DNA from: Alitta virens
Lineage: Eukaryota > Annelida > Polychaeta > Phyllodocida > Nereididae
Assembly (NCBI GenBank): GCA_932294295.1
Contig: OW028575.1
Coordinates: forward strand, 38,380,253-38,444,252
Length of the DNA: 64,000 bases
Direction: 5' to 3'
Notes under the pieces: generated by a model
Database searches by the model: none
Told to the model about the DNA's origin: nothing
The model's input: only the letters and a program-made list of their open reading frames with translations
Translations under genes and position numbers: made by a program
Shown: positions 2,326 to 63,641 of the stretch, one piece after another
How the letters are laid out: every line of letters starts with the position of its first letter
Position numbering within the stretch: the first letter of the stretch is position 1

Positions 2326-2444
2326 CCCAGATAGCATTCCAAATTGTTTCAATGTCGGCACGATGTCGGTGATGTTAATACGATGTTGTAATGACAGTGG
2401 CCTGCATGGAAACGATGCTGGGCCGATTTTGAATGCTATTTGGG
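2326..2444. mobile_element. MITE copy 1, 119 bp
   Basis: The element starts CCCAGATAGCATTCCAAATTG-like and ends with the inverted counterpart, slightly mutated on the right (TTTTGAATGCTATTTGGG). A second 119-bp copy lies 241 bp downstream. The interior, with repeated CGATGT words, has no coding capacity. Flanking TT dinucleotides could be the target duplication, but this is weak. Superfamily not assigned. Confidence 0.75.
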
Positions 2445-2566
2445 TTAAAGTACAACTATAGGTTTAACTGAAGTGTGCATTGCGCTGAGCACTATGTTGG
2501 CCACTGGGGTTTGAGGTCTTCACCCACAGGGTATACCACCCTTGCCACGAGGAGGCCCAGGACTTT

Positions 2567-2685
2567 CCCAGATAGCATTCCAAATTGTTACAATGTCAGC
2601 GCGATGTCGGTGATGTTAATACGATGTTGTAACAACAGTGGCCTACATGGAAACGATGCTGGGCCAATTTGGAATGCTATCTGGG
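2567..2685. mobile_element. MITE copy 2, 119 bp, perfect terminal inverted repeats
   Basis: Same family as the copy at 2326-2444, over 90% identical by eye. The ends are perfect inverted repeats of 21 bp: it opens CCCAGATAGCATTCC and closes GGAATGCTATCTGGG. The direct-repeat arrangement of two equal-length copies 241 bp apart suggests either two insertions or a local duplication that included about 120 bp of flank. Non-autonomous DNA element. Confidence 0.8.
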
Positions 2686-2699
2686 TTCAGGTCTATTGA

Positions 2700-5600
2700 T
2701 GCTAAGCTCATGGAACTACATGTAATATACCTTGGAGGAAGATCTTGAATTAAAAAATGGATGACTCAGACTGTTTTTAGGTCGCAAGAGTAAAATTCAT
2801 CCGGAACCTTTTGGCTCTTCATCCAACTCCCACCAGCAAACCATCAACTATCTGTAACTTTATTTATATATTGGCATGATTATTGTGCAAATGTATTTTC
2901 AAGACAGTAAACGTGATCCCTGAAGAAGATAATTTAAGAAAACCTGCCGTAAAACAAGAAACCAGAAGTGTTCTAAAGTGTCCTAAAACCTGCTTCATGC
3001 CATGTGCGGAAAAATACAAAAAGCATTTATGGACATTTGTTAAGATTCGCTCAGCTGAATTTCTCATTTACGAGACACAGTTAACATTTTAAGTAAACTA
3101 TGTCAATTTCTGATTGTGTTTGGGTACAATCTGATTGGGTGGAGGTCCTCCTTTCTTTTCATTTCTTCTTATGCAGTTTTGGCAACAGTACTTAAGCTCC
3201 GATGAGAGGGTTAAAATTTTGTTTACTTTTACTTTGTTTCATTGCAGAAAAAACAATACTTAGGGAGTGCTTCCACTTCAAAAATACTGATTACACTCAA
3301 CTTACATATTATAGTTGTTACATAGAACTTTATTTTTATTTTTTTAAGCCAAATATCATTCACAAGTTTGTTCAAATCATTAGAATCTCTCCAAGCACCA
3401 TCCAGTCTAGTTAGCCCATAGAAAGCTTAAAACTTAACCAATTAATACTGGGTAACTTTTGAATGGATATTATTTTGTAAAAGCCTTTCAATGGGAGTTA
3501 AAACGTAACTACACAGTCTAATATCAGTCAACATGCATGTTGTTTTTTTGTTTTGTTTTTAATTTATTTCATTTTCTGTTTTAGCAAAGCTGACCAATAG
3601 CACCTGTAAATGTGAATGTTTTGAGTGATGGATGAGCTCAACTGACTACAGTCTTTCTCGCGCATCATTCTTAGCAGTAAGCACTCTACAATTACTATCA
3701 TAGCCAAGCACCCATGGCGGATGGAGCAAAGAGTTACAAAGGGCCTGCTCATTTCCTCCATACTTAATACTTTAGGTGGAGAATATCAACAGTACTGCTG
3801 TCTCATAGGTAAGTGGTTTGATGGAAATGCTCAATGAAACTTGACAGCTTAAATCCCTTTGTCAAACTAGTTGTTTGCTTCTGAAACAAATCCGCTAGGG
3901 TCAATTCTACTATAGGTACACATTAAGGCCTCCAAGTGACCTTCATCTGACCTTCCTCCTCTAATTCAGCCTTTTTATTAAACAGTTCATTTGGCCTATA
4001 TTTCAAGCGCAGATGAATACGTTTTGCATCCATTGACGAAAATACAAGACAGAGAAACAGACATATAATATAATAGTGGGCATACCAGAAAATACTTTTA
4101 GAATGCTTCATATCATGCATATAAACAAAATTGTCAGGAGCATATCCTTTAACTCAACGCAAAATATACTTTTTTTTTTTATCGTTCTACTGCAGCATAT
4201 CCCATAATCAGCTCTTAAAAAACGACGAGGTAACCATGGTAACTTATCTTAATTGGTGATAATACAGCTAACTGGTAAGCTGTTGCAATAAGTCATGATC
4301 AGTTGACAGTGGGCAGTGTCTTCTAATCTGTCAAATGAATGCAACTCTGCCATGTGCCAACAATGCATGTCCTCATGGGCCCATTCTCTCATTTTTCGGT
4401 AAATGAAATCAATAAATCTGATTCACGTTCAGGCAAATTTGTGTAAGTTGTACTACTAGTTGCTACCCACTGAATGAGCAGAAATTTGAATTAAAAACAA
4501 GACTGTGAACTAATTTCATCACAATGGACAAAACTTAAATTGCTTGAATATTATATTTTGTACGCTATTATAAACCATTACATAAATAAGTGAGCTATTG
4601 CTTTTTGTCGTGAGCAATAGGTGATCAGGGGGGGGGGGGGGGAAATAGAAAAACAAAGATTGGAATGTTGCAGAAACAAATATCTACAATTTATTCCTTA
4701 TTTGAGATAATTTTACACAGAATTAGCATATTAGTAATTCCATTTAGGCTATACACACTATATATACAGGCTGGTCCTAAATACACAGGTTCTGAGTTTC
4801 CAAACTGTAACTTTTGCATAAAATATGCAATAAAAGTTATAGAAATGTCAATGTAATTTACATTTTCATATAGTAACCCTGTAAAAAGTAAAATTAACCA
4901 ACCTGCTGTGCCGTGAGATTGGAAGACAGTGTGAGAGGAATCCTGGCAGTGTCACCCCTGGGTCTGTTTGCCAGCTGTCCGCATGGAAATCACTCAGGCA
5001 TGGAGGCCTAGTCAATACTAGGAATACTAGGAATACCAATAACAGCACTAAAACACTGCTGAAGTACTTTCGACCTTGCATGAATGTTTGGGCCAAAATG
5101 GCCAACTTTCTAATAAAATCTACAAGACTTTCTTATCACATAACAATTATAAAATTAATATACATATTTGATTTATACATTGATAAACATACATGTAGAC
5201 CACAAAAGGTTTAATTAAAATAATTTAAGAATAATGCTTAGTAAAATCATATAATGTAGAATTAAAACTTCAAGCTTTTTTATAACAAGAAAAGCTCTCT
5301 TTAATAAAAGGGACCTGAATCAGAATTGGTTAACGTAGTCTAGACATGCAAAAAAAAACTATTTTGTATGGACTTTAGTTGCAGGTATACTGACAAGTTA
5401 TCATGTCAAAATATTATTATCAATTAGTATAGTTCATATAAATTTATGTCTTTGTCTTTATTGCCAAACGTGCTGTAAAATGTACTTTTCCATAGATCCT
5501 CGCTACTCTTGCCTAGCTACCCAAAACTGTCTGCAAATCGACCACTTGCACCATCTATAGTATTAGTAATTATAAAAAGAGACCTTTGCTTGTAAGTCAT

Positions 5601-16365: not shown

Positions 16366-16670
16366 TTGAATGTGCTAAATCTGGAGACACAGTAACTTTA
16401 AGTTGACATAAATATACATATAATATAGCTTCGCTCACTCCTGGCATTGACAGCTACATATTATCATTATAGTCTATATTATAATAGCTTCGTTCGAGTG
16501 ACATTTCGTGCAACAGCATTTTGCTTTATATTGCAGTGTCATGGTTTATATGGTTTATACAGTTTATGAGAGAAAGACGATAAATCAGTGAACATTACAT
16601 CTTGTTCTGTCTGCAATAATATTCCAACTCTATACAGCTACAGCTGTAACAAAACAGTTATTTTTTCTTT
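15136..16670. other. Non-coding; one TA microsatellite and a CTCF-like pair
   Basis: No supported gene. It contains a TA dinucleotide run at about 16,332-16,360 and an inverted pair of GC-rich motifs at 15,902-15,943 (listed separately). Otherwise AT-rich unique-looking sequence. Confidence 0.5.
15902..15943. promoter_or_regulatory. Convergent pair of CTCF-core-like motifs
   Basis: CACCAGGGGGCAG (15,902-15,914, plus) and GCAGCGCCCCTGGTTGC (15,927-15,943; minus reading GCAACCAGGGGCGCTGC) both resemble the bilaterian CTCF core CCANNAGGGGGCGC and face each other 12 bp apart. The same bases can form a short hairpin, so an element end is an alternative explanation. Sequence resemblance only. Confidence 0.3.
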
Positions 16671-16689
16671 AGAATGATTCACTTTCTCA

Positions 16690-16807
16690 TTAGAACGATT
16701 GAATTTATTGTTAGGAGATATTATCTCGTTAGAACGAGATGTTATCTTGTTAGAACGAGATGCTATCTCATAAGAACGAGATGTTATCTCTTAAGAATGA
16801 GATATAG
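16690..16807. repeat. Second cluster of ATCTCGTT/AACGAGAT palindromes
   Basis: At least four consecutive 20-22-bp palindromes of the type ATCTCGTTAGAACGAGAT separated by 3-4 bp. Same family as 14,365-14,436. The cluster ends about 80 bp before the acceptor-like site that opens the first minisatellite block. Confidence 0.85.
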
Positions 16808-16884
16808 AAAAAAATCCCATGTCCCCTCCCAGCCACCGTATTATTGTATGCATGCATGTCTAATCTTTTGCTTTTTATTTGCAG

Positions 16885-17110
16885 TTAGTCATCGCAGGCG
16901 GACCACCAGCAGGACGATGCAGACCACCAGCAGGACGATGCAGACCACCAGCAGGACGATGCAGACCACCAGCAGGACGATGCAGACCACCAGCAGGACG
17001 ATGCAGACCACCAGCAGGACGATGCAGACCACCAGCGGGACGATGCAGACCACCAGCGGGACGATGCAGACCACCAGCAGGACGATGCAGACCACCAGCA
17101 GGACGAGATG
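16885..17110 (+). repeat. 21-bp minisatellite in exon-like slot (left edge)
   Basis: After a good 3' splice acceptor sequence (TTTTATTTGCAG, ending at about 16,884) come about ten copies of a 21-bp unit (CAGGACGATGCAG plus ACCACCAG). Because 21 is a multiple of three, all plus frames stay open (for example repeats of PPAGRCR or DHQQDDA). The block ends GATTCTGAGTTTTTCTTAT, matching the sequence that follows the 26-bp blocks in the macrosatellite. It therefore sits at the homologous position of an older, diverged unit. No evidence that any frame is a real protein. Confidence 0.8.
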
Positions 17111-17540
17111 ACGAGGATTCTGAGTTTTTCTTATATTTACGGTTTCTTATATTTTGGATTATTGGGTAAATTGGGTAATTGGGTATTTAATTTAGTGTCG
17201 GTATGATATTATAGTGTGTTTAGGATAGGTCTCTGGAAGCTTGCCGGACAAAGCTGATTTTGGTCTGAGACTGGGGCCGCGGAATCAGGCTGACTTTGGC
17301 TAGTCTGTCTTGTTCTCTGGGGGCGCATTAGGCTTAGCATACTAGTGGGTAAAGGAATAAGGAAAATATCTTTAAGTTGGATTGGTAGAATACTATTAAG
17401 TAGAAATAATAATTTAATTAAGTTTGAATTTAGAATAGTTGATATAGGATAGTTTTCGTGTCTGTTTTTATGTATGTTGCTGTATGTTGTGTTTGTTGTT
17501 GTCATGAATAATTCTCTTTTAGTTTTTTGTTTTTTTCCCC
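17111..17540 (+). repeat. Diverged first unit of the macrosatellite
   Basis: Aligns with the standard array unit but with many substitutions and extra bases. It contains a longer version of the GC-rich insert (CTTGCCGGACAAAGCTGATTT and GGGGCCGCGG) that only some downstream units keep. Edge units of tandem arrays commonly escape homogenisation, so this probably preserves an older state. Confidence 0.8.
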
Positions 17541-17544
17541 AGGA

Positions 17545-17860
17545 TTAGGCAGACCGGACTACACGCAGACTTCGAGATACGGGACTACACGCGGACTTCG
17601 AGATACGGGACTACACGCGGACTTCGAGATATGGGACTACACGCGGACTTCGAGATACGGGACTACACGCGGACTTCGAGATACGGGACTACACGCGGAC
17701 TTCGAGATACGGGACTACACGCGGACTTCGAGATACGGGACTACACGCGGACTTCGAGATACGGGACTACACGCGGACTTCGAGATACGGGACTACACGC
17801 GGACTTCGAGATACGGGACTACACGCGGACTTCGAGATAGGGACTACACGCGGACTCATG
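17545..17860 (+). repeat. 26-bp minisatellite, longest block (about 12 copies)
   Basis: Unit starts GGACTACACGCGG and ends CTTCGAGATACG. It contains four CpGs per 26 bp in an otherwise CpG-poor region. Because 26 is not a multiple of three, translation cycles through three frames (78-bp protein period), giving false open frames with repeats such as DYTRTSRYGTTRGL. Later units hold only 2-5 copies. Confidence 0.9.
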
Positions 17861-20800
17861 AGTTTTCTTATATTTTGGGTTTTTTATAGTTTCCATGGGT
17901 AATTAGGTATTTATAGCGTGCATAGGAAAACTGGCGAGCTGGCTAACTTTGGTTAATCTGTCTTGTTTTCTGGGGACCATTTAGGCTTAGCTCTACTAGT
18001 GGGTAAAGGAATAAGGGAAATATATTTTAAGTTGGATTGGTAGAATAGTGAAAAGTAGAAATATTAATTTTATTAAGTCTGAATTTAGAATAGTTGATAT
18101 AGGATAGTTTTTGTGTCTGTTTTTATGTATGTTGCTGTATGTTATGTTTGTTGTTGTCATGAATAATTCTCTTTTAGTTTTTTGTTTTTTTCCACAGGAT
18201 TAGGCGGACCGGACTACACGCGGACTTCGAGATACGGGACTACACGCGGACTTCGAGATACGGGACTACACACGGCCTTCGAGATACGGGACTACACGCG
18301 GACTCATGAGTTTTCTTATATTTTGGGTTTTTTATAGTTTCCATGGGTAATTAGGTATTTATAGCGTGCATAGGAAAACTGGCGAGCTGGCTAACTTTGG
18401 TTAATCTGTCTTGTTTTCTGGGGACCATTTAGGCTTAGCTCTACTAGTGGGTAAAGGAATAAGGGAAATATATTTTAAGTTGGATTGGTAGAATAGTGAA
18501 AAGTAGAAATATTAATTTTATTAAGTCTGAATTTAGAATAGTTGATATAGGATAGTTTTTGTGTCTGTTTTTATGTATGTTGCTGTATGTTATGTTTGTT
18601 GTTGTCATGAATAATTCTCTTTTAGTTTTTTGTTTTTTTCCACAGGATTAGGCGGACCGGACTACACGCGGACTTCGAGATACGGGACTACACGCGGACT
18701 TCGAGATACGGGACTACACACGGACTTCGAGATACGGGAGTACACGCGGACTCATGAGTTTTCTTATATTTTGGGTTTTTTATAGTTTCCATGGGTAATT
18801 AGGTATTTATAGCGTGCATAGGAAAACTGGCGAGCTGGCTAACTTTGGTTAATCTGTCTTGTTTTCTGGGGACCATTTAGGCTTAGCTCTACTAGTGGGT
18901 AAAGGAATAAGGGAAATATATTTTAAGTTGGAATGGTAGAATAGTGAAAAGTAGAAATATTAATTTTATTAAGTCTGAATTTAGAATAGTTGATATAGGA
19001 TAGTTTTTGTGTCTGTTTTTATGTATGTTGCTGTATGTTATGTTTGTTGTTGTCATGAATAATTCTCTTTTAGTTTTTTGTTTTTTTCCCCAGGATTAGG
19101 CGGACCGGACTACACGCGGACTTCGAGATACGGGACTACACGCGGACTTTGAGATACGGGACTACACACGGACTTCGAGATACGGGACTACACGCGGACT
19201 CATGAGTTTTCTTATATTTTGGGTTTTTTATAGTTTCCATGGGTAATTAGGTATTTATAGCGTGCATAGGAAAACTGGCGAGCTGGCTAACTTTGGTTAA
19301 TCTGTCTTGTTTTCTGGGGACCATTTAGGCTTAGCTCTACTAGTGGGTAAAGGAATAAGGGAAATATATTTTAAGTTGGAATGGTAGAATAGTGAAAAGT
19401 AGAAATATTAATTTTATTAAGTCTGAATTTAGAATAGTTGATATAGGATAGTTTTTGTGTCTGTTTTTATGTATGTTGCTGTATGTTATGTTTGTTGTTG
19501 TCATGAATAATTCTCTTTTAGTTTTTTGTTTTTTTCCCCAGGATTAGGCGGACCGGACTACACGCGGACTTCGAGATACGGGACTACACGCGGACTCATG
19601 AGTTTTCTTATATTTTGGGTTTTTTATAGTTTCCATGGGTAATTAGGTACTTATAGCGTGCATAGGAAAACTGGCGAGCTGGCTAACTTTGGTTAATCAG
19701 TCTTGTTTTCTGGGGACCATTTAGGCTTAGCTCTACTAGTGGGTAAAGGAATGAGGGAAATATATTTTAAGTTGGATTGGTAGAATAGTGAAAAGTAGAA
19801 ATATTAATTTTATTAAGTCTGAATTTAGAATAGTTGATATAGGATAGTTTTTGTGTCTGTTTTTATGTATGTTGCTGTATGTTATGTTTGTTGTTGTCAT
19901 GAATAATTCTCTTTTAGTTTTTTGTTTTTTTCCCCAGGATTAGGCGGACCGGACTACACGCGGACTTCGAGATACGGGACTACACGCGGACTCATGAGTT
20001 TTCTTATATTTTGGGTTTTTTATAGTTTCCATGGGTAATTAGGTATTTATAGCGTGCATAGGGAAACTGGCGAGCTTGCTGGAAAAAATTAATTTTGGTC
20101 CGGGGCTGGGCTGCCCCCTAGCGTCTGGCTAACTTTGGTTAATCTGTCTTGTTTTCTGGGGACCATTTAGGCTTAGCTCTACTAGTGGGTAAAGGAATAA
20201 AGGAAATATATGTTAAGTTAGATTAGTAGAATAGTGAAAAGTAGAAATATTAATTTTATTAAGTCTGAATTTAGAATAGTTGATATAGGCTAGTTTTTGT
20301 GTCTGTTTTTATGTATGTTGCTGTATGTTATGTTTGTTGTTGTCATGAATAATTCTCATTTAGTTTTTTTTTTTTTTCCCCAGGATTAGGCGGACCGGAC
20401 TACACGCGGACTTCGAGATACGGGACTACACGCGGACTCATGAGTTTTCTTATATTTTGGGTTTTTTATAGTTTCCATGGGTAATTAGGTATTTATAGCG
20501 TGCATAGGAAAACTGGCGAGCTGGCTAACTTTGGTTAATCTGTCTTGTTTTCTGGGGACCATTTAGGCTTAGCTCTACTAGTGGGTAAAGGAATAAGGGA
20601 AATATATTTTAAGTTGGATTGGTAGAATAGTGAAAAGTAGAAATATTAATTTTATTAAGTCTGAATTTAGAATAGTTGATATAGGATAGTTTTTTGTGTC
20701 TGTTTTTATGTATGTTGCTGTATGTTATGTTTGTTGTTGTCATGAATAATTCTCTTTTAGTTTTTGGTTTTTTTCCCCAGGATTAGGCGGACCGGACTAC

Positions 20801-48226: not shown

Positions 48227-48230
48227 TTAA
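48227..48230. repeat. TTAA target-site duplication, left
   Basis: TTAA immediately outside the left inverted repeat, matched by TTAA at 55,737-55,740. Confidence 0.85.
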
Positions 48231-48250
48231 AGGTCATGGGCAATCAAAAT
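48231..48250 (+). repeat. Terminal inverted repeat, left
   Basis: Sequence AGGTCATGGGCAATCAAAAT, an exact reverse complement of 55,717-55,736. It is preceded directly by TTAA. Confidence 0.92.
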
Positions 48251-48435
48251 CATACTTTTGCCGAAAATGTTCTTATCAGATAGATTAAAGTGTATTAAAA
48301 AGGTCTGCAGAAAAAAAAACGAACTTAATGTATATGTTACAAACAAAAAACGAAGTTTGCCGCACTCCCGCGCATTTCGCGTATGTCAGGATCGAAAAGT
48401 GGTAGTTCCTCTACCTGCCACCAGGGCCGTGCGTG

Positions 48436-48454
48436 TGACGTCAGAGTTGCTGTT
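48436..48454 (+). promoter_or_regulatory. Subterminal repeat with CRE palindrome, left promoter
   Basis: TGACGTCAGAGTTGCTGTT lies 17 bp upstream of the ballast gene ATG. An exact inverted copy lies at 55,538-55,556 upstream of the transposase ATG. It contains the full CRE TGACGTCA (CREB/ATF site). Position suggests a core promoter element shared by both genes, or a subterminal transposase site; function is inferred. Confidence 0.65.
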
Positions 48455-48471
48455 CTTGAGTGGCATTCAGC

Positions 48472-50322
48472 ATGGACAACCCTGGGAGTCTGGATGAGTT
48501 TAATGAACTGGACGAAATTGTGACCCCCAGACCAAGGATATTTGAACCATATGCATTAGATCCTATTCCAAATAATCCTAACAGGCTTAGGGATGCATTT
48601 TTACCTGATGACAGTTCAGAATTTAGCAGCCTAGAGGATGTAAATGACAGTGACAGTTCCAGTGATGATGATCATCAAGAGCCACTTCAGACAGAAAGAG
48701 CTGAGTTACAAGACTGGTGAGTGCAATTTTGTATTGATATCCTTGCTGTGGTTTCAATAAATACTATACAATTGGTTTTTTTTTGTTGACATGAGATAGC
48801 TTATTCATATTCATGACTTAGTATACATGTGTATAGAGAATAACCTAAAAAACAGTTGTGGAACCTAGCAATATAACAAAATGTAAACTTATAAAAGGGT
48901 CAGTAGTAGTGTTGTATTTATAATAATTATCTAATAATATAATAATAATTAAACAATAATAATATATATATGTATACCATTAAAAAGCGAAAACATAGTC
49001 ATACATTAAACGCACTGAGAAGTAAAAAAGAGAAAAATTAATTTTAAAAAGTGGCATTAAAAAGCCATTTTTAAAAGTTCTCAGAAAATCTTTAAAGTCT
49101 CTCCAGAGATAATAGTAGAATTAGTAGAATCCATAAATAGTAGGCTATTTTAGTAGCAGTTTGAAATTTTTCAAATATTCTGTTTTTACAAATTTTGCAT
49201 TGATGCTGTAACCAGGATGAAACACATTAACATAGTTTCATGCACATATTGCATTTCTTATTGATATCCTCTGAGTTACTGATAATACACAATTGTATAC
49301 CATTTCTTAGAGTTGAAACAAAGGCAATTTGAAATGCCCCCTTTTCATAAAAGGTTATGATTACATCATTAGTTGATTATCAAAGAGGGTTCATTCCAGT
49401 TCAATGCTCCTGACCACTGAGGCATGTCACCTTTTTACTTGCTAATTGCTTGCAGACCCCCCAGATGAATGTGAAGATGATCATCAATATTAAAATTCAA
49501 TGCCAGCATGTAATAGCCAATTAATACAAATATTCCAAAATTATATCATAGCTTAGTGTTGGCTATGAAAACACTAATCATAATTTAAGATATGAAAGCA
49601 ATATATAAAATAAAAGAATAAGAAGCATAAAACTTGTGACAACATAATGTGTTTATCTTGAACTTTTCACACCTTTTGAATGATCAGGGGAGGATCCAGA
49701 ATTTTTTTTTTAGATATGTACCACTTAAATCAAAATGTATTAGACCAAAGGGGGAGGGGGTTTAAACTGAAGCAATGACTGATATAAATAAACCTATGGC
49801 GAAGTGACTTCACTTTCAAACGGGATCCAACTGCCTGTTCAATCTCCCTTTATGCCATCCAGTTAATTATAAATGATCTTTATTTTCATTTTCAGGTGTT
49901 CATGTGAGCAGTGCAGCACCATGCCCACAGAATTAGAAGATGTCTGCTGTCACCACTACAGCCAAACTAGGGTTAGGATGGGCCTAACTGACAAACCAAG
50001 GCATGAAAGATCCAGGGACCTGACACGACTGGAAGCTCCTGTCCAGTGCATCACAAGCCACCCAGGGTTTCATGACATTTGCCTCAGTCAATGGACCCTA
50101 GAGTATGAGGCATACCAGTATGTGGAGCAGGAAGGCAGAGTGGGAGATGACCAACCCGTTAACGTGTTGATGAGGCACCTGGCCTATAGACGCTTCGTAA
50201 GATGGGTCTTTGGAAAAATAGGCCGGCATAACAGGATCACCATCCCCTCCTGTGTGGTCAACAAAATTAGGAACACTTATGCGTCTGATGTTTATGTGGG
50301 ATTTCGATTCCCTGTGTACTGA
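48472..50322 (+). CDS. P2X7 ballast-domain protein (transposon-encoded), 2 exons
   Basis: Exons 48,472-48,716 and 49,896-50,322 (donor CTG|GTGAGT, acceptor TTTTCAG) join in frame to 223 residues. Residues 1-81 are acidic and serine-rich with no known fold. Residues 82-223 resemble the cytosolic C-terminal ballast domain of the vertebrate ATP-gated channel P2X7. A cysteine cluster WCSCEQC...CC (C83, C85, C88, C99, C100) matches its zinc site. The C-terminal block (172-223) has LMRHLAYRRFVRWVFG, then IPSC (198-201), and ends GFRFPVY. There are no transmembrane helices or P2X ectodomain, so it is a free ballast protein. Vertebrate P2X7 uses this domain for zinc and guanine-nucleotide binding; here the role is unknown, perhaps DNA or partner binding for transposition. 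The ATG at 48,472 is the first in frame; upstream GTG readings are ignored. It converges on the transposase gene inside shared inverted repeats. Confidence 0.88.
48717..49895 (+). other. Intron of the ballast-domain gene
   Basis: A 1,179-bp AT-rich intron with GTGAGT donor and TTTTCATTTTCAG acceptor. I see no gene or element inside it. Confidence 0.8.
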
Positions 50323-50418
50323 TCACAGCCTTTTCTACGAAGTCTGATCACAGCCTTTTCTACGAAGTCTGATCACAGCCTTTTCTACGAAGTCTGATCA
50401 CAGCCTTTTCTACGAAGT
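50320..50418 (+). repeat. Four 25-bp direct repeats starting at the stop codon
   Basis: Unit TGATCACAGC-CTTTTCTACG-AAGTC, repeated four times almost exactly, the last slightly truncated. The TGA of the first repeat is the stop codon of the ballast gene, so the tract is the start of its 3' UTR. Confidence 0.92.
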
Positions 50419-50559
50419 GCCATTTGGTTGTTTTTGCTTACCGAATTAGAAATGTATATTGTCAAATTTGTTTGCTTTTTGTGGTCTGATACAAACTTTA
50501 CATGCAAAGTGATGTCAAAAAAGAGAAACTGAACATCTTATGTTTATGCATATTCTGTG

Positions 50560-50565
50560 AATAAA
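50560..50565 (+). terminator. Polyadenylation signal of ballast gene
   Basis: AATAAA, overlapping a second AATAAA-like word, about 240 bp after the stop codon; first good signal on this strand. Confidence 0.65.
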
Positions 50566-50569
50566 TAAA

Positions 50570-51475
50570 GATGATAATAATTTATATCCTTTCCAGTGTT
50601 ACCATTTCAAACATATTTTCTCCTAGGAATTAATAATAATTGTTAAACTGAGAATATATAATGGGCGACTGGTTATTTTTTTACCATCGCTAAAATGACT
50701 ATAAAGTCTATAAACCTCCACAAATGTTTTCACCTGACATCAATATTCATAAGTTTTTGTAACCAAGGCCAGAACATAAATGCATGCAAAAATGCCGTCA
50801 ATAAGTCCAACAATATATTGACCATTACAGGCGCAATTCTTTTTACTATGCACTGATTGATTCTTTATTAAAAATCACAACGCATTTGTATTAGAACTGT
50901 TATTTTGAGACCACCACTGTGTGTGATCATCACAAAATATTATATGATCTGATAGACTTTCAATAAGATCATTGTAGGAATTTGCTAGAAATTGCTACAT
51001 ATTTATAAAAGATATATCATGCCTTGACCATGTCAGGCTTGGCGAATTGCAGATTATGCAATTCCAGTGATATTCAGATCACTCAAAGGATCCATGTCAA
51101 ATGGCTTTGGTTTGAGGTCAAGCGAGTGCTGGGCATGTCGAGGGAGGCAATGTAAAAGCCTGGTCATGTAATGAATCCTATAATCTTCTAACCATGTTAG
51201 ATTTATAAAGACACCTGCATGGGGTTAAAAAAAATAGAACACTGTGTGCTTGAAATTCATTATATAATTAGACATGAGGACTTTATTGAGATAGGATCAC
51301 ATTTGGCACAAATCACATTTGATCACAGTTGGCACGCAAATCAAAATTGGCACAAATACCATATAATTTTATCACAATTGGCACAGAAATCACATTTGAT
51401 CACAGTGGGCACTGTACAAATAAATATAAAATATGAAAAATAATACTGACAGGTTTATACAGTGAAGGCCAAAGA
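50570..51475. repeat. Spacer between convergent genes, with TTGGCACA repeats
   Basis: Non-coding spacer between the two polyadenylation signals. At 51,296-51,414 there are about six degenerate copies of ATCACATTTGGCACA. They give rise to a spurious 74-codon plus frame. Confidence 0.6.
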
Positions 51476-51481
51476 TTTATT
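51476..51481 (-). terminator. Polyadenylation signal of transposase gene
   Basis: TTTATT on plus (AATAAA on minus), 49 bp downstream of the transposase stop codon. Confidence 0.65.
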
Positions 51482-51530
51482 AGAACTCTCATATTTTATA
51501 GTCTGGAGTCAAACTGTATTCTACAAGAGA

Positions 51531-54500
51531 CTAACATGAAAAACGTGTGTGATGTTTCTCAACCAGAGTGGCTTTGTCGCTTCTTGTTTGGAATGTTGCA
51601 CTGATGAACTGTGGTGGCTCCTTTCCTGTGGACCCTGCACTAGCTTCGGAGTAAGTCGGGAAATTATTCCTGCACAAAAATACTTCAGCCATCAGCGCTT
51701 CCACATATCCTGTAAGAAAAAAAATTTAAGATATGCATCTACATACAAGGATTTCCATTAATGATTTCTTTATTTGCGGATAAGAAGCCAATACAGTTTG
51801 GTGTCTGGAAAATCCTGCACCTAAGATGAGAGTTAGAGGCATGTCCATTTAGTGTAATATTTAAGCAAGTGTCCCACTGTTACTCACCATAAGTAATTGG
51901 AACCTTCACTTGCTTCAGAATACCAACACCTCCCTTGTACTTCGGATAAGAAACACTCCAAAGGTTTTCTCCGATTCGGGACTTTTGTTGTCTTCTCGCA
52001 CTGTTTTCATTGAAATGCAAAGCGGCAATGAATCCCCTGCAAGCATACATAAATAAATCTTGTGAATTGGTTGTAAAAAGTTAAAATTTCCTACACTATA
52101 TGTTGAATGAATGACAATAAGATAGAACATGGATACTGTAATAAAAATGTGGAATACTGTGTATACCACAGTAAAAGCTGGATTTATGTTTAAATGCTAA
52201 ATTAGACACACACATAAAGAAATCAACACCTTACATTAAACATTATTCTCAGTATATCTCACCTGGCCTGCATTTGGGGGTAGAAGAAATGCGATGATTT
52301 TGGTGCAAAAAAGCACACCACTTTGTGGAAGACCTCCACATCATAGGTTTGGTCTCCAGGTGACAGTTGTCGGATGTCGCCACAGAGCCGCTTGTTATTG
52401 ACAATGTCCTCAATGGCCTTATGAGCTTTGCATCCTGAAACACAAAAGAGATTCACTGTGTACATCAGCAGACTTACATGGTGTACACTAGTAGTAATGA
52501 TCATCAGAAGGCACATTTATGTACCTTTTTCAATCCATACTCTGTCCTCTAGAGGCCCATGATCACATGCTGGGTATAGTGAATCATCATGCTGGTGGAT
52601 GTCAGCCACATGGTTCACCATGGAACGCCATTTTGCAAGGGCCATTTCCGCATCACCTTCACTGGTAGAAGCTGCCCAATACAGGTGGTTGACTATGGAT
52701 GGAATCCATTTCTTGATTTTGTCGTTGTCCTTCCGACCGGCCCAAGCTACAAGTTTCTTCCTGATCCCTGCAATTTTTAGAGCATTATATCATTCTACTG
52801 AGAAAACAGCAGCACCATACATTCATCTAAGCCAATATTTAAATTGTTGTAGAGAAAAAGTATCAGTACCTTTGGCAACATGCCAGCAATCAAAATAGTG
52901 TTTCATAGCTGGTTTGTCTGTCCTTATGTATTTTCGAATGCTGGGATGTCTGTCCGTAACTATGTGGCTTATGGCAATGCCATTATCTTCCAGTACGCGG
53001 ATACCTCTCTTAAAGCCCTCCAGCTCCATTGCATTTGAGCTGGTGGTTTCATTGCACTGCATAAAAATGAAAAAAAAACTGTGACAGAGCATAATTCTAA
53101 ACATGCATCTATTTAGCTTATTATCTTTTTTCTTATTCCTTGTAATGCTTCACTGATCGATTTACGAAAATACAACATTTTGCCCATCAATATATGCCCA
53201 AGTTATAAATATGAATTGTAATTATATTGTATTGCTTGAAACAACAAAATCTCTCACTTTATGAACAAATACATGACAATTACACTGAGCTGAAACTAAA
53301 TTTCACAACATACCTGAACTAGTTGAAGATCCAGTACACGTTTCTGATCTAGGTCCATCAGTGTGTACGTGCCATATTTAGCGGAGTGCCCAGGCGAATC
53401 ACAACGGCCATCACCACCGAGTTTCACCGCAGTCGTCACCGCCCGAAGATGAACAAGTTGCTCTGTTCTCCAAATCGAGTTGACTGCAGGCACTAAGTAG
53501 CAACGCTGCATCAAATTGTACGTCCTTATGGAGATACACGGAACCTGAAACAATTGGCAAATGTAAATGACACTAGCAAAACTGTACACATACCACACAT
53601 GCAAATACAACTACAACAATGCTCACTGCTTTCAGTTTATTATTTCGAATTACCTTTGCGTGATGCAGCAAGTTGAGTGCTTTCACTGGACTGCATCCTG
53701 AGAAGAGACAGGCTGCAGCAAGTCGCAGATTAATTTCAGGCATGGTCCCCAGTAAAGGCTGCGACCACCATGAGAATGGAGTACCACAGACCTTGCAAAG
53801 GGCTTCAAATAAGATCGCGGTCCCACGACGGGTGCGCATCCACACTTCTCGAGAGGTGCCACATACCAAACAGAGACTCAGCAATTGAAACAGACTTGCT
53901 GCTGATACCAGGAAAGAGCTGCTGTCTGACCCCGTAAGCTTTTTCCTTAAACGAAAAAACAAAACAAAAACATTGTTAAAAATGATAACAGCAAAAGTTT
54001 CTTCACATGTTGGTAACTAAAGCTGGCCTTCCATGACCTGTCACACAAAAAAATTTTGTAAATACAATGTAATGCACTTGTTAACTATTTGTTATACCTG
54101 TCGTCGATTTCCTCAGAGTCAGAAAGGTCGCTTTCTGAACTTGGCTCGTATTCAGTCGGCAAGTAGTCCATGTCATCTGAACAATCCATAAATTCTTCTT
54201 CATCTTCAAAATGAAGGCCATCTTCAAAATGAAGGTCATCCTCCTGGACATTAGGCACTGATGGCAGCAGTAGATCACAGGTGGTCTCCTTCTCAGCATA
54301 TTTCGGTGTGACATTTACCCCCTTGTGCCTCTTGATAACTGCCTCGGTCTGACACATCTTCACATTAGTTGCTCTTGGCTCAGATGCAATGTGACATCCA
54401 ACCGACACATCCAGCATCTTTGAAAATAAATTAAGAAATGATATAATGTTTATTCATAGGTATATTAACTACAATAATATTTTAAGTATCTGACAAAAGG

Positions 54501-55475
54501 TACTCCTTCAATGTGTAACGAGAAATAAAATCGGTTAAAAAATCCAACCCTTTTCATAAAATTAACTCACCACTATTAATCCATCAGTTTGTGTTGCGAC
54601 ATCACGCTTTTGGGAGGGGTTCCCTAACATCTCAGGTAATGATACTTCAACAGAATCGTCAATGTTCACATTGGGTGATTCAGGAGAGAGCACCTCATCC
54701 CAAAGAACTTGTGAAGCTTGCAATCTGCCTTGCACATCTAGCATTGTCTGAAAAACAAAAAGAAGCAATTTTTAAGACTTATTCGAGAATAAACATCTGT
54801 AACATAATCATACTCCAAGGTCTCTGACATCTATATATCTATATATATGTATATATATATATATATACTGTTGTGGTGGGTATTGCCTACATTTAGTAAG
54901 TTTTGGGAGGGTTTCATAAACTTTCAAATGGAATTGTAATATGAATAATATACATTGTATAAATAAATGTGTGGAATTATTTATCACAGACTTAGTGACT
55001 TTTATGAAGTCCTGCTGTTAAATTATTTACAGTTAAAGCTAAACTGTATTAATCGTGCACATAAGATGAATCACAAAATAGCAGTGTTAATATTGCTCAA
55101 CAGTAAAAAGCCCAATACACATACCTGCAAATTCTGTCTTTTGACTGCAGCCATCCTAGGCTTTTTGCTGACATCCTTTGTCTTTCCTAGATTAAGAGTA
55201 GGCACAACTCCACTGGCAAGTTCATGTCTTCCCGGTTTATATTCCAACAAACCAGCTTGTTTTGGTGATGGAAAACGAAAGTCCTCGGGGTCTCTAAAGT
55301 GTAGACCACAAATCTTGTGGGTAGGTCTCCAGTATTTTTCCTCATAATTTTGTCGGTTTATCCTGTTCATCCACTGTCTCCTAAGATTTTGATCACGAGG
55401 GAAACTATGCCATGTCACTTTCAAATTCTTATTGTTTGAGTCTGAGCTACATCCAACCGCTTTACAATAAACCAT
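51531..55475 (-). CDS. THAP-domain DDE transposase (Kolobok-like), 10 exons, 766 aa
   Basis: Exons in transcription order: 55,475-55,125; 54,747-54,571; 54,417-54,098; 53,945-53,654; 53,544-53,314; 53,056-52,870; 52,767-52,525; 52,434-52,263; 52,036-51,888; 51,709-51,531 (stop TAG). All introns are GT/AG and phases join without a break (2,301 bp). Residues 1-95 form a THAP zinc finger: C4, C9, C56, H59 (CX4C...CX2H), conserved W35, F25-P26, and a GVVPTL box like the AVPTIF motif. Residues 118-283 are acidic linker. The catalytic core has GDGRCDSPGHSAKYGTY (D425 or D429), VTDRH (D492) and FDCWH (D513-H516, the D-x2-H motif of several DDE families). The third acidic residue is not certain; E668 in HFNEN is a candidate. 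Expected role: binds the element ends and cuts and pastes at TTAA. It looks intact and could be active. Confidence 0.9.
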
Positions 55476-55537
55476 CTTGCTAAATCACGAGTAAACACCA
55501 CGCATGTAAGTGTGTTTACATTGTGCTACCAGCCTGC

Positions 55538-55556
55538 AACAGCAACTCTGACGTCA
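55538..55556 (-). promoter_or_regulatory. Subterminal repeat with CRE palindrome, right promoter
   Basis: AACAGCAACTCTGACGTCA on plus, the exact inverted copy of 48,436-48,454. It lies 62 bp upstream of the transposase ATG and contains TGACGTCA. Confidence 0.65.
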
Positions 55557-55716
55557 CTGCCTGAGTTGACACCGTTACGCTTCAGCGATCGCACCAAAAT
55601 GCCGTTGCGTGAATTGGCGTAAATTAACGCTAATATCTTTTCACACAGAAGACCGATTTACATAATATTTATAAGTTAAGTTTGTAGTACTCTATTCTAC
55701 GATCTGGTAAAGTTTA

Positions 55717-55736
55717 ATTTTGATTGCCCATGACCT
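55717..55736 (-). repeat. Terminal inverted repeat, right
   Basis: Exact complement of the left 20-bp end, followed by TTAA at 55,737-55,740. Confidence 0.92.
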
Positions 55737-55740
55737 TTAA
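55737..55740. repeat. TTAA target-site duplication, right
   Basis: TTAA directly outside the right inverted repeat, matching the left duplication. Confidence 0.85.
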
Positions 55741-60997: not shown

Positions 60998-63513
60998 TTA
61001 TTGGGACATGTTACTTTCATCATCATCATCTGGTGTAAGTATATCTTTGATCATTTCTCGGTGCTGATGATGTTTCAGGAGTGCGTCCCTCTGGGTATTT
61101 GTTACGCTTGCAACATTATTAAAGCTAGCTGCAAACGTAGTGAAGGTCACTCCCGACATCTTAAACACTCTATGATCAGGTGAAATTGTGTCGGGAAAAG
61201 GTTTGAAAAACATGTCGCTTAATCTCCATCCGTGTTTTCCTCTCGTGTGAAATTCACCGAAGTTGTACTTGTCAGCAATTTCCTCCATTTGCTCTGCAAA
61301 GAAAGACACATTGACATTAGCCATGCAGTTCTTATGTGATAGGTTGTAGTATATATAATCATACATTTAACTCATGCAAATTCCATAGGAAGTTAAAATG
61401 ATTGTTTGCATAACTCCCTTATTTCTTTAAGTATATTACATATTGGTGTTTAATAGGCACATTTAACCAACGAAAATGGTTTTTTACTATGCATATTGAA
61501 AGAGCATGCAGAGCCGTGATGAATAAATCTGGGAACATTGAAAGCAAATATGTTATAATAGCCTCACAAAAATTTGGTAGATATTTAGTCTACCATTTGC
61601 TAATGGTCCGTCTATGAGATGCAGGTTGCGCGAGATCTGCCTTGGTGTTATCAGAGGCCCTGGGGTAACTAGGATTTTTCTGATTACTCGACTTGAGATG
61701 CTCTCGACGGCCTTGATGTTCGATTTATCCCCACTTGTAGCAGTAGACAAAGCCTGGATAAAGATACACATTAATATATTTTTAAATGTACATAAATGTA
61801 TGCATTTAAATATCTTATATATTATGTTAACATTCTTAGCATACCTCTAGAATTGTCATCTTTTGTTTTTTACTGCTCATCAAAATTTGTTCAGCTGCTT
61901 CCATTGTGACAAGGGGGATTTCCAAGGGTATTTCAAAATTCACCGAATCAGTTATTTGTGACCTGGTCTTTCTTTTGTGGGCATTATCGCGTTTAAGTAC
62001 ACACCAGTCAAATGCTGCATGAAGGATTGCAGCACCGCTGATAATCTGGCTAGAAGGATGACATCTTTGCTAGAGGTAGGTGAGCAGCTAGCCTGTGATA
62101 ACTTCTCCTGGTCGCCATCATCTTCTGCAATATGAATGAATGGATTGATTACGAGAACATATCAATTATAGAACACTGGGTATCGAGGTTGTCACCAATC
62201 TAAATTTTTTTTATCACCATATTAAAATTTGTTGCGAGATGTTCCATTTACGACATGGGAAGTCTGGGCATGATGGACCACTGAGAAAAGGTTATATTTA
62301 TGTAAACGTGGGAATTGTAAGCCATTTGTGGGCGGAGTGCAATCAGCATAAGTAATTACTAAATCAATCATTTCCTTGCAAAACATTTCAGCATCATTAC
62401 TGTAAGTCTGTAACAGATGAATTTGATTGTTTTGGGATCAAAATCTACATAGTAAAAACTTATATATGCTTTTGCAAACTTTTTGCATGGCAGTGTAATA
62501 CAACTATATTTGTACATATCTTAAACAGGGCCATGTACTTTATAAACGTGCAACTAAAGGGACAGAAAATATAATTTAATTATTATTATGTGCCCAACAT
62601 GCCCCACTTCCTCTCAATGATATTCAATCTACCTGATTCTGAAGGGTACATGGCATTCAGCTCTTCAATGCGTTCATCTGTCATTAAATCAAAGTTGTGT
62701 TCCGTTTCTTGGCCAAATTTGTACTTCCTGGGGACCTCATGACAGCTATATATTGCTTTAAACATTGATTTAAATATGTCATTTGGATAAGTGCTGAGGT
62801 CATTGCTTGCTCTTCTATTCACTGTTGCCAGGTGGTGTTTAGGCTTGTCCACGAAAAAAAGCATACGATCTAGAAAACCATCGTCCATGGTCATGTTGGC
62901 CAATTCGGTAAAACATGGTTCCGGCTGAATCAGTATAGACATTGAGAAGCTAGTGCTGTTGAACCCCCTATCACCATCTTTTAGGGCAGTCAGGTCACCT
63001 TTGCCTCCCCACAATTTATTGATTGGGGCCCGTTCTGCCTCATTCTTTTGTTGCTTATTGTTTATAAGCGACAAAACCCTATGTCCTTCATCCGAGCAAA
63101 GTAAGACCCTCCCCCCATTTTCGCATTGATGACGTTGGAGCCCAGCTGATGAGTACGATTCTAATAACATTTTAGTGCTGAACATTTCATCTATATCATC
63201 ACTGACTTCTCGTAGTATTGAATAGATGAAGGATTTGCCCCCTCCAGGGGCACTTATGCCCATGTCATATATATTTAAGGGCGTGTCAAAACCACTTCTC
63301 ACCTCCATGGTTGCATTAGGGCCACACACAGATGAACAAAGTGGCAATAACCCAGACATTATGATAGTGATTGGGCAGTTGCTTTGCTTGCTCTGCAAAT
63401 CCAGATATTCATAAAAGGATTCATTTAGAATATTTTGCCATGTGTAGGTTTCCCGATATGCTTTTTTGTAAAGCTTTACAATCTGATCTTGATGAAATCG
63501 TTTTAGTGACATT
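60998..63513 (-). CDS. DUF3987-type P-loop ATPase, multi-exon, one frame break
   Basis: Exons in transcription order: 63,513-62,633; 62,124-61,845; 61,753-61,594; 61,293-60,998 (stop). The first exon may start at the ATG at 63,512 or continue from an exon beyond the window, because AG of TTTCAG directly precedes it. It has a Walker A motif GISAPGGGKS, a Walker B-like VLLCSDEGH, a lysine/glycine-rich LWGGKGDLTALKDG, and the DUF3987 signature of an IQPEP strand followed by GFLDRMLFF. DUF3987 proteins are ATPases common in phage and mobile elements, often linked to primase/helicase functions. Exon 2 enters in one frame (ILLARLSAVLQSF) but must leave in another (EIPLVTMEAAEQILMSS) to join exons 3 and 4 in phase. 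There is therefore a frameshift or an unrecognised splice near 62,000-62,050. The last exon ends in an acidic tail, DDDDESNMSQ. Confidence 0.65.
62222..62437 (-). other. Unassigned 71-codon open frame inside the first intron
   Basis: Stop-to-stop frame on the same strand, with protein-like composition (EMFCKEMIDLVITYADC, then LHKYNLFSVVHHAQ). It could be an alternative exon or part of an older coding sequence. No splice pair that keeps phase with the flanking exons was found. Family unknown. Confidence 0.25.
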
Positions 63514-63641
63514 CTGAAATGCAAGATGTTAAAGAATAATAATAATAATAATAAATAAAGGAAAATGAATAATAATTATGTTGAGGTTAACCTAATTTTC
63601 TTGTTTAGTCTGTTTTGAGGAGAATTGGCACAAAGTCACAA

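Follow-up and report, generated by a model that had tools for sequence, protein, structure and literature searches.

A probable Kol0-type Kolobok transposon of Alitta virens with intact transposase and KolX genes and a second pair of inverted sites inside its ends

A 64,000-nucleotide stretch of the genome of the annelid Alitta virens (contig OW028575.1, positions 38,380,253 to 38,444,252; hereafter the window, whose own coordinates are used throughout) harbours a 7506-bp transposable element framed by TTAA duplications at 48227-48230 and 55737-55740. Two convergent genes lie within it: KolX, which reads rightward in 2 exons and encodes 223 aa including a ballast domain like that of the P2X7 tail, and a transposase gene, which reads leftward from 55475 down to 51531 in 10 exons and encodes 766 aa, both frames staying open through GT-AG introns. 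Both models were spliced by us from the genomic sequence. The initial annotation of this DNA had proposed a complete TTAA-flanked element with perfect 20-bp inverted ends and two unbroken spliced genes, one for a THAP/DDE transposase and the other for a free ballast-domain protein, and it was right on each of these points, the boundaries to the base. From left to right, the features of the element are:

48227-48230, no strand: left TTAA target-site duplication (sequence match)
48231-48250, plus: left terminal inverted repeat, 20 bp, 5'-AGG, AGGTCATGGGCAATCAAAAT (genomic matches)
48435-48454, plus: subterminal inverted repeat on the KolX side, GTGACGTCAGAGTTGCTGTT, 204 bp from the end (exact inverted pair)
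48472-48716, plus: KolX exon 1, acidic N-terminal part (open frame, motif reading)
49896-50322, plus: KolX exon 2, ballast/zinc-cysteine domain (P2RX7_C), including the stop codon (Pfam, P2X7 alignment)
50319-50418, no strand: 25-bp tandem repeat in 4 copies, overlapping the KolX stop (repeat search)
51531-51709, minus: transposase exon 10, including the stop (splicing model)
51888-52036, minus: transposase exon 9 (splicing model)
52263-52434, minus: transposase exon 8, candidate catalytic E634 (family comparison)
52525-52767, minus: transposase exon 7, H2CH zinc finger H572, H577, C587, H589 (motif, family comparison)
52870-53056, minus: transposase exon 6, catalytic D492 and DxxH at 513-516 (splicing model, motif)
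53314-53544, minus: transposase exon 5, catalytic D425 in GDGRCDSPG (splicing model, motif)
53654-53945, minus: transposase exon 4 (splicing model)
54098-54417, minus: transposase exon 3 (splicing model)
54571-54747, minus: transposase exon 2 (splicing model)
55125-55475, minus: transposase exon 1, start and THAP domain with C4, C9, C56, H59 and GVVPTL box (Pfam, motifs, PDB THAP matches)
55538-55557, minus: subterminal inverted repeat on the transposase side, 179 bp from the end (exact inverted pair)
55717-55736, minus: right terminal inverted repeat, reverse complement of AGGTCATGGGCAATCAAAAT
55737-55740, no strand: right TTAA target-site duplication (sequence match)

The two terminal repeats correspond with 0 mismatches, with TTAA outside each, and no further match to them with up to 4 mismatches occurs in the whole window. 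Together with the TTAA, the arms reach 32 nt at 94% complementarity, and the element contains two exact 20-nt inverted repeats, the longest exact one in 60 dinucleotide shuffles being 18. When the host genome (671 Mb, 23 contigs) was searched for the 24-mer of TTAA plus end with up to 3 mismatches, 125 forward and 144 reverse matches were obtained (269 in total), and the same pattern read backwards gave 0 in either orientation. No empty-site paralogue was found within the window, the two flanks sharing merely short repeats of about 80% identity, nor did any Rfam family match the window at gathering scores.

In the transposase, Pfam recognised a THAP domain (2.6e-13) and a Mutator-like transposase (1.8e-8), and the KolX product matched P2RX7_C (6e-21), all above curated cut-offs, so that the profile search suggested by the initial annotation was positive for both models it had named. 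The THAP domain matches the solved chains of THAP2 (1.4e-4) and THAP11 (3.3e-4) in sequence, and we read its GVVPTL as the AVPTIF box. The DxxH motif takes the form DCWH (D513-H516), and the H2CH finger sits between it and E634. The DDE triad, DxxH and zinc finger are common to the window, the sister family f24 and the distant locus L029, as assigned by motif and not by structure. NEN (667-669) was dropped as the site of the catalytic E, since family comparison favours E634.

These traits agree with published descriptions. Kolobok transposons are defined by a TTAA duplication and 5'-RR/YY-3' ends, and the RR/YY termini separate them from piggyBac, which shares the TTAA duplication (PMC9587614); a THAP domain, a DDE domain with C/DxxH, and a zinc finger before the E are described for their transposases (PMC9587614, PMC6004289). 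The window element ends in 5'-AG...CT-3', TTAA flanks it as well as the copies L010, L017 and L021, each at different flanks, and its transposase carries a C2CH THAP domain, DDE, DxxH and the interposed finger. Furthermore, Kojima and Bao in 2022 described Kol0-lineage elements of the Kolobok-1_XT type as encoding KolX, a ballast-fold protein (PMC9587614), and the second gene here has, by sequence, the ballast domain with its seven cysteines. Traits of KolobokP were not seen: none of the 20 largest repeat families listed is a long direct repeat at the termini, and in the region that would hold a CCHC finger after the first D, from D425 to D492, the sole cysteines are C428 and C458. We are thus highly confident that this is an autonomous cut-and-paste DNA transposon of the Kolobok superfamily, Kol0 type; the Kol0 placement is made by comparison with published descriptions. 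Because the KolX pairing was already published (PMC9587614), the element is a further member of a kind known since 2022, and the initial annotation's view of it as a possible two-protein system of an unusual kind was not right: it fits the Kol0 lineage.

The pairing of the two genes is not accidental. The transposase probe found 17 genome copies at 96% identity or more (one, at 23.1 Mb on C2, in two pieces), and the DNA of KolX exon 2 found 19 with at least 94% identity, of which two are incomplete. By position, KolX lies within 4 kb of 14 of the 17 transposase copies, and the three without it (L037, L081, L082) have also lost 3' transposase parts by deletion or truncation; the initial annotation had proposed asking whether both genes recur together, and they do. 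The pairing also withstood the refuting conditions named there, namely that other copies of the inverted ends consistently lack the ballast gene or that its homologues always lie outside such elements. Independent insertions are fewer than 14, because five pairs on C8 (6.04-6.31 Mb), probably one segmental duplication, have a common 14-bp flank and a common break point, and L011 and L015 likewise have a common 14-bp left flank. Five KolX copies lack the transposase probe: L018 and L028, which are deleted, and three known from probe positions only (two at 48.1 Mb on C2, one on C5). More widely, P2RX7_C matched 42 places in the genome, all above cut-off, and 28 of these were examined, one being that of the window and the other 27 lying within fetched loci. 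Among the fetched KolX loci L009-L032, 21/24 contain transposase sequence, and wherever the arrangement was clear it was convergent (20/20). This holds for L023-L025, with KolX at 59-60% identity, and for the distant loci L020, L027, L029 and L032, at 38-50% over short matched stretches. The exceptions are the deleted L018 and L028; L030, where a KolX-like gene (2441-3240), perhaps a tamed one, has no transposase in 8 kb and no TTAA inverted repeat that we could find; and L026, whose inverted arms hold two KolX-like genes alongside a single transposase stretch.

L026:2073-6852 on contig C13 is a Kolobok-like element with 1.6-kb inverted arms, 97-100% alike and starting TTAAAGGGGCTGTATCCCC, with a KolX-like gene per arm and a transposase-like fragment in between, and L020:297-7850 is a diverged element with KolX and transposase, bounded by ends of its own, AGTGATAYGAAGTCTCA, that are flanked by TTAA.

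The family has moved recently, as L010, 99.8% identical to the window element, lies between two TTAA copies in other flanking DNA; TTAA also borders both ends of L017 and L021, and one end of L015 no longer has it. Relative to the window, where both frames are open, one or more coding lesions were seen in each of L010, L011, L015, L017 and L021. For the copies that lack one end (L009, L012-L014, L016, L018, L019, L022), the alignments were forced across missing sequence, and the divergence they gave was disregarded. Among the first 100 of the 269 end places, the spacing is 0.9-2.3 kb in 27 pairs and 4.1-7.5 kb in 5, which leaves 36 places without a partner. Four short pairs fetched whole (L033-L036) hold no transposase, and the sole trace of KolX in them is a start piece of 20 residues, present in three.

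As for KolX itself, its nearest solved chains by sequence are those of P2X7 (2.9e-6). Cysteines 83, 85, 88, 99, 100, 133 and 201 correspond to the zinc clusters in the ballast motif as published (PMC7016195), and with the P2X7 ballast domain, or ZCD (Rump 2020, PMC7016195), and Nanor it shares the seven zinc cysteines and the RHxAYR and PSC motifs. It differs from P2X7 in having no channel and in the CC-to-CIT spacing, 32 residues in KolX and 6 in P2X7. Each of seven KolX sequences compared (window, f24, L020, L026, L027, L029, L030) has cysteine clusters one and two and the PSC/PAC cysteine; the CIT/CIS/CVS cysteine was seen in six, the corresponding L029 exon not having been found. Five GDP contacts are named in rat P2X7 (PMC7016195), of which the alignment places three in window KolX; R574 and K583, counted by eye, are missing from it. 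The R546 equivalent alone is kept in all seven sequences, and that of R578 in five, being T in f24 and H in L029. A fully conserved GDP site was accordingly rejected. Because the cysteines are kept while the GDP contacts are only partly so, we regard zinc binding as very likely and the binding of guanine nucleotides as uncertain; of the zinc and nucleotide binding suggested by the initial annotation, the second is weakly supported. A single-sequence AlphaFold2 model of KolX exon 2 reached a pLDDT of 37.6; the ballast fold is assigned by sequence. Against f24, KolX shows 0.855 synonymous (saturated) and 0.262 non-synonymous differences per site over 141 codons, and a transposase exon 0.779 and 0.368 over 96 codons. 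Since the non-synonymous differences lie far below the synonymous ones, KolX looks to be held by purifying selection, no less than the compared transposase exon. Searches with a single-sequence query, suited to close relatives only, gave 3 pattern matches in viral contigs and 57 in prokaryote genomes, 0 of either confirmed by tblastn. At the KolX stop, the 25-bp tandem repeat is represented by fewer copies in L009, L011, L015 and L017.

What looks new is the second matched pair of inverted sites inside the ends. Each 20-bp site contains the palindromic TGACGTCA; one is found 17 bp upstream of the KolX start and the other 62 bp upstream of that of the transposase, each oriented towards its gene. 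The main text of PMC9587614 contains none of the terms "subterminal", "sub-terminal" and "internal inverted" (Repbase and the supplements lying outside this scope), and no account of a paired Kolobok subterminal repeat was found in the literature searched. Between terminal and subterminal repeat, the left and right ends are similar at chance level (99/200 shuffles score as high). As a control, 400 random window pieces, those overlapping the element included, yielded 2 with fewer than 5 mismatches, both exact.

Since the repeat directly precedes both start codons, it may in part be a promoter, and its position and orientation relative to both genes would suit the view that the sites are twin promoter elements only, a CRE-like site for each gene. 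We consider this second, stricter reading possible, on the unlikely side, and see in the repeats rather candidate cis-acting transposition sites, which is the likelier reading, though held with some reserve. Gene-less short elements keep the repeat at both ends, while the intervening DNA, from the repeat to the end, is just 57-81% identical. For instance, L036 (0.87 kb) has it at 19/20 at each end, with 112/184 and 91/159 positions of the intervening DNA identical to the window. Furthermore, both ends carry the same family-specific tail in the window, in L033/L035 and in f24, whose own version has a different tail, GTGACGTCATCGGTGTGAT. Finally, the two offsets remain unequal by 24-30 bp throughout: 204/180 in L033 and L035, 204/179 in L037, 203/173 in f24 and 173/149 in L036. 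In the latter both repeats lie about 30 bp closer to the ends than in the window (L075/L076 have the same spacing), and the 24-bp difference is therefore kept. In ten further short pairs, of which the ends were fetched, an 18-base core with at most 1 mismatch is present in 20/20 ends; in nine of the ten pairs, however, the spacing is 204/180 as in the L033 family, whose sampled ends are near-identical. Several observations, besides the promoter-like position, weigh against transposition sites. The repeat (up to 3 mismatches) occurs in 9 of 20 unpaired ends and is missing from 11; the sample comprised the first 20 not previously fetched, and an end passed over, that in L028, carries it. Likewise, with up to 4 mismatches allowed, GTGACGTCAGAGTTGCTGTT was not detected in L020, L023-L027, L029, L030 or L032; its lack in more distant families, like that at unpaired ends, suits twin promoters. 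L024 and L025, however, belong to f24, with its own version despite the missing match; f23 has no recognised ends, and f29 shows a single TGACGTCA together with a different short inverted pair at a similar place.

The element may work as follows. The THAP/DDE transposase would recognise the ends, excise the element and insert it at TTAA, and KolX, a small zinc-cysteine protein of presumed ballast fold, would be produced from the same element. Either the THAP domain or KolX might bind the subterminal repeat and aid end pairing. We lean slightly towards KolX being required in trans for transposition; that it aids transposase assembly at the ends, the subterminal repeats being a possible place for this, is a tentative suggestion on the less likely side. 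An accessory transposition role, as the initial annotation had suggested, is plausible; it weighs on this reading that two GDP contacts are absent. No published function of KolX was found in the literature searched. KolX could instead be a regulator outside the transposition machinery, acting on element transcription or chromatin or on host silencing, a less probable but serious alternative: the palindrome facing both gene starts would fit it, and Nanor, a zebrafish relative, has been proposed to act in transcription (PMC7016195), but the gene-less copies L033-L036 need no promoter and still keep the repeat at both ends. That the element picked up KolX from the host by accident is highly improbable, for although free ballast-domain genes exist across animals (PMC7016195) and L030 stands apart from any transposase found, KolX adjoins most transposase copies, its relatives at 38-60% identity keep the same convergent pair, it appears to be under purifying selection, and it is published as part of Kol0 elements (PMC9587614).

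P elements, too, combine a THAP domain with terminal plus internal inverted repeats, and their transposase binding sites are unequally spaced at the two ends (PMC7776569). Membership of the P superfamily, to which these likenesses might point, is very improbable, as P elements make 8-bp target duplications (PMC7776569), where the window, L010, L017 and L021 have TTAA only, and as both the H2CH finger and KolX characterise Kolobok. By analogy, and as a doubtful speculation, Kol0 could be a split P-element-like machine, in which terminal and unequally spaced subterminal repeats form a two-site end and KolX acts in trans. Binding zinc and perhaps guanine nucleotide, KolX would then be the end-pairing factor; its equivalent in P elements would be the GTP domain, which is built into the transposase, and KolX is not known from P elements. 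If this were true, the P2X7 tail would be a tamed end-pairing factor.

Elsewhere in the window, a 329-aa open frame with DUF3987 (1.7e-17) lies at 62586-63575 on the minus strand, and two open frames of short tandem protein repeats (TMQTTSR; DYTRTSRYGTTRGLRDTGLHADFEI) at 16650-17889.

The initial annotation called the ballast domain best known as a channel tail, a history that is likely reversed, given that Kojima and Bao derive the P2X7 tail from KolX (PMC9587614). The function of KolX bears on the origin of the P2X7 ballast domain, and because both genes are uninterrupted and the family was recently mobile, the window copy is a practical subject for asking what that function is. The paired subterminal repeats, with their conserved unequal spacing, offer a concrete binding-site hypothesis for either protein.

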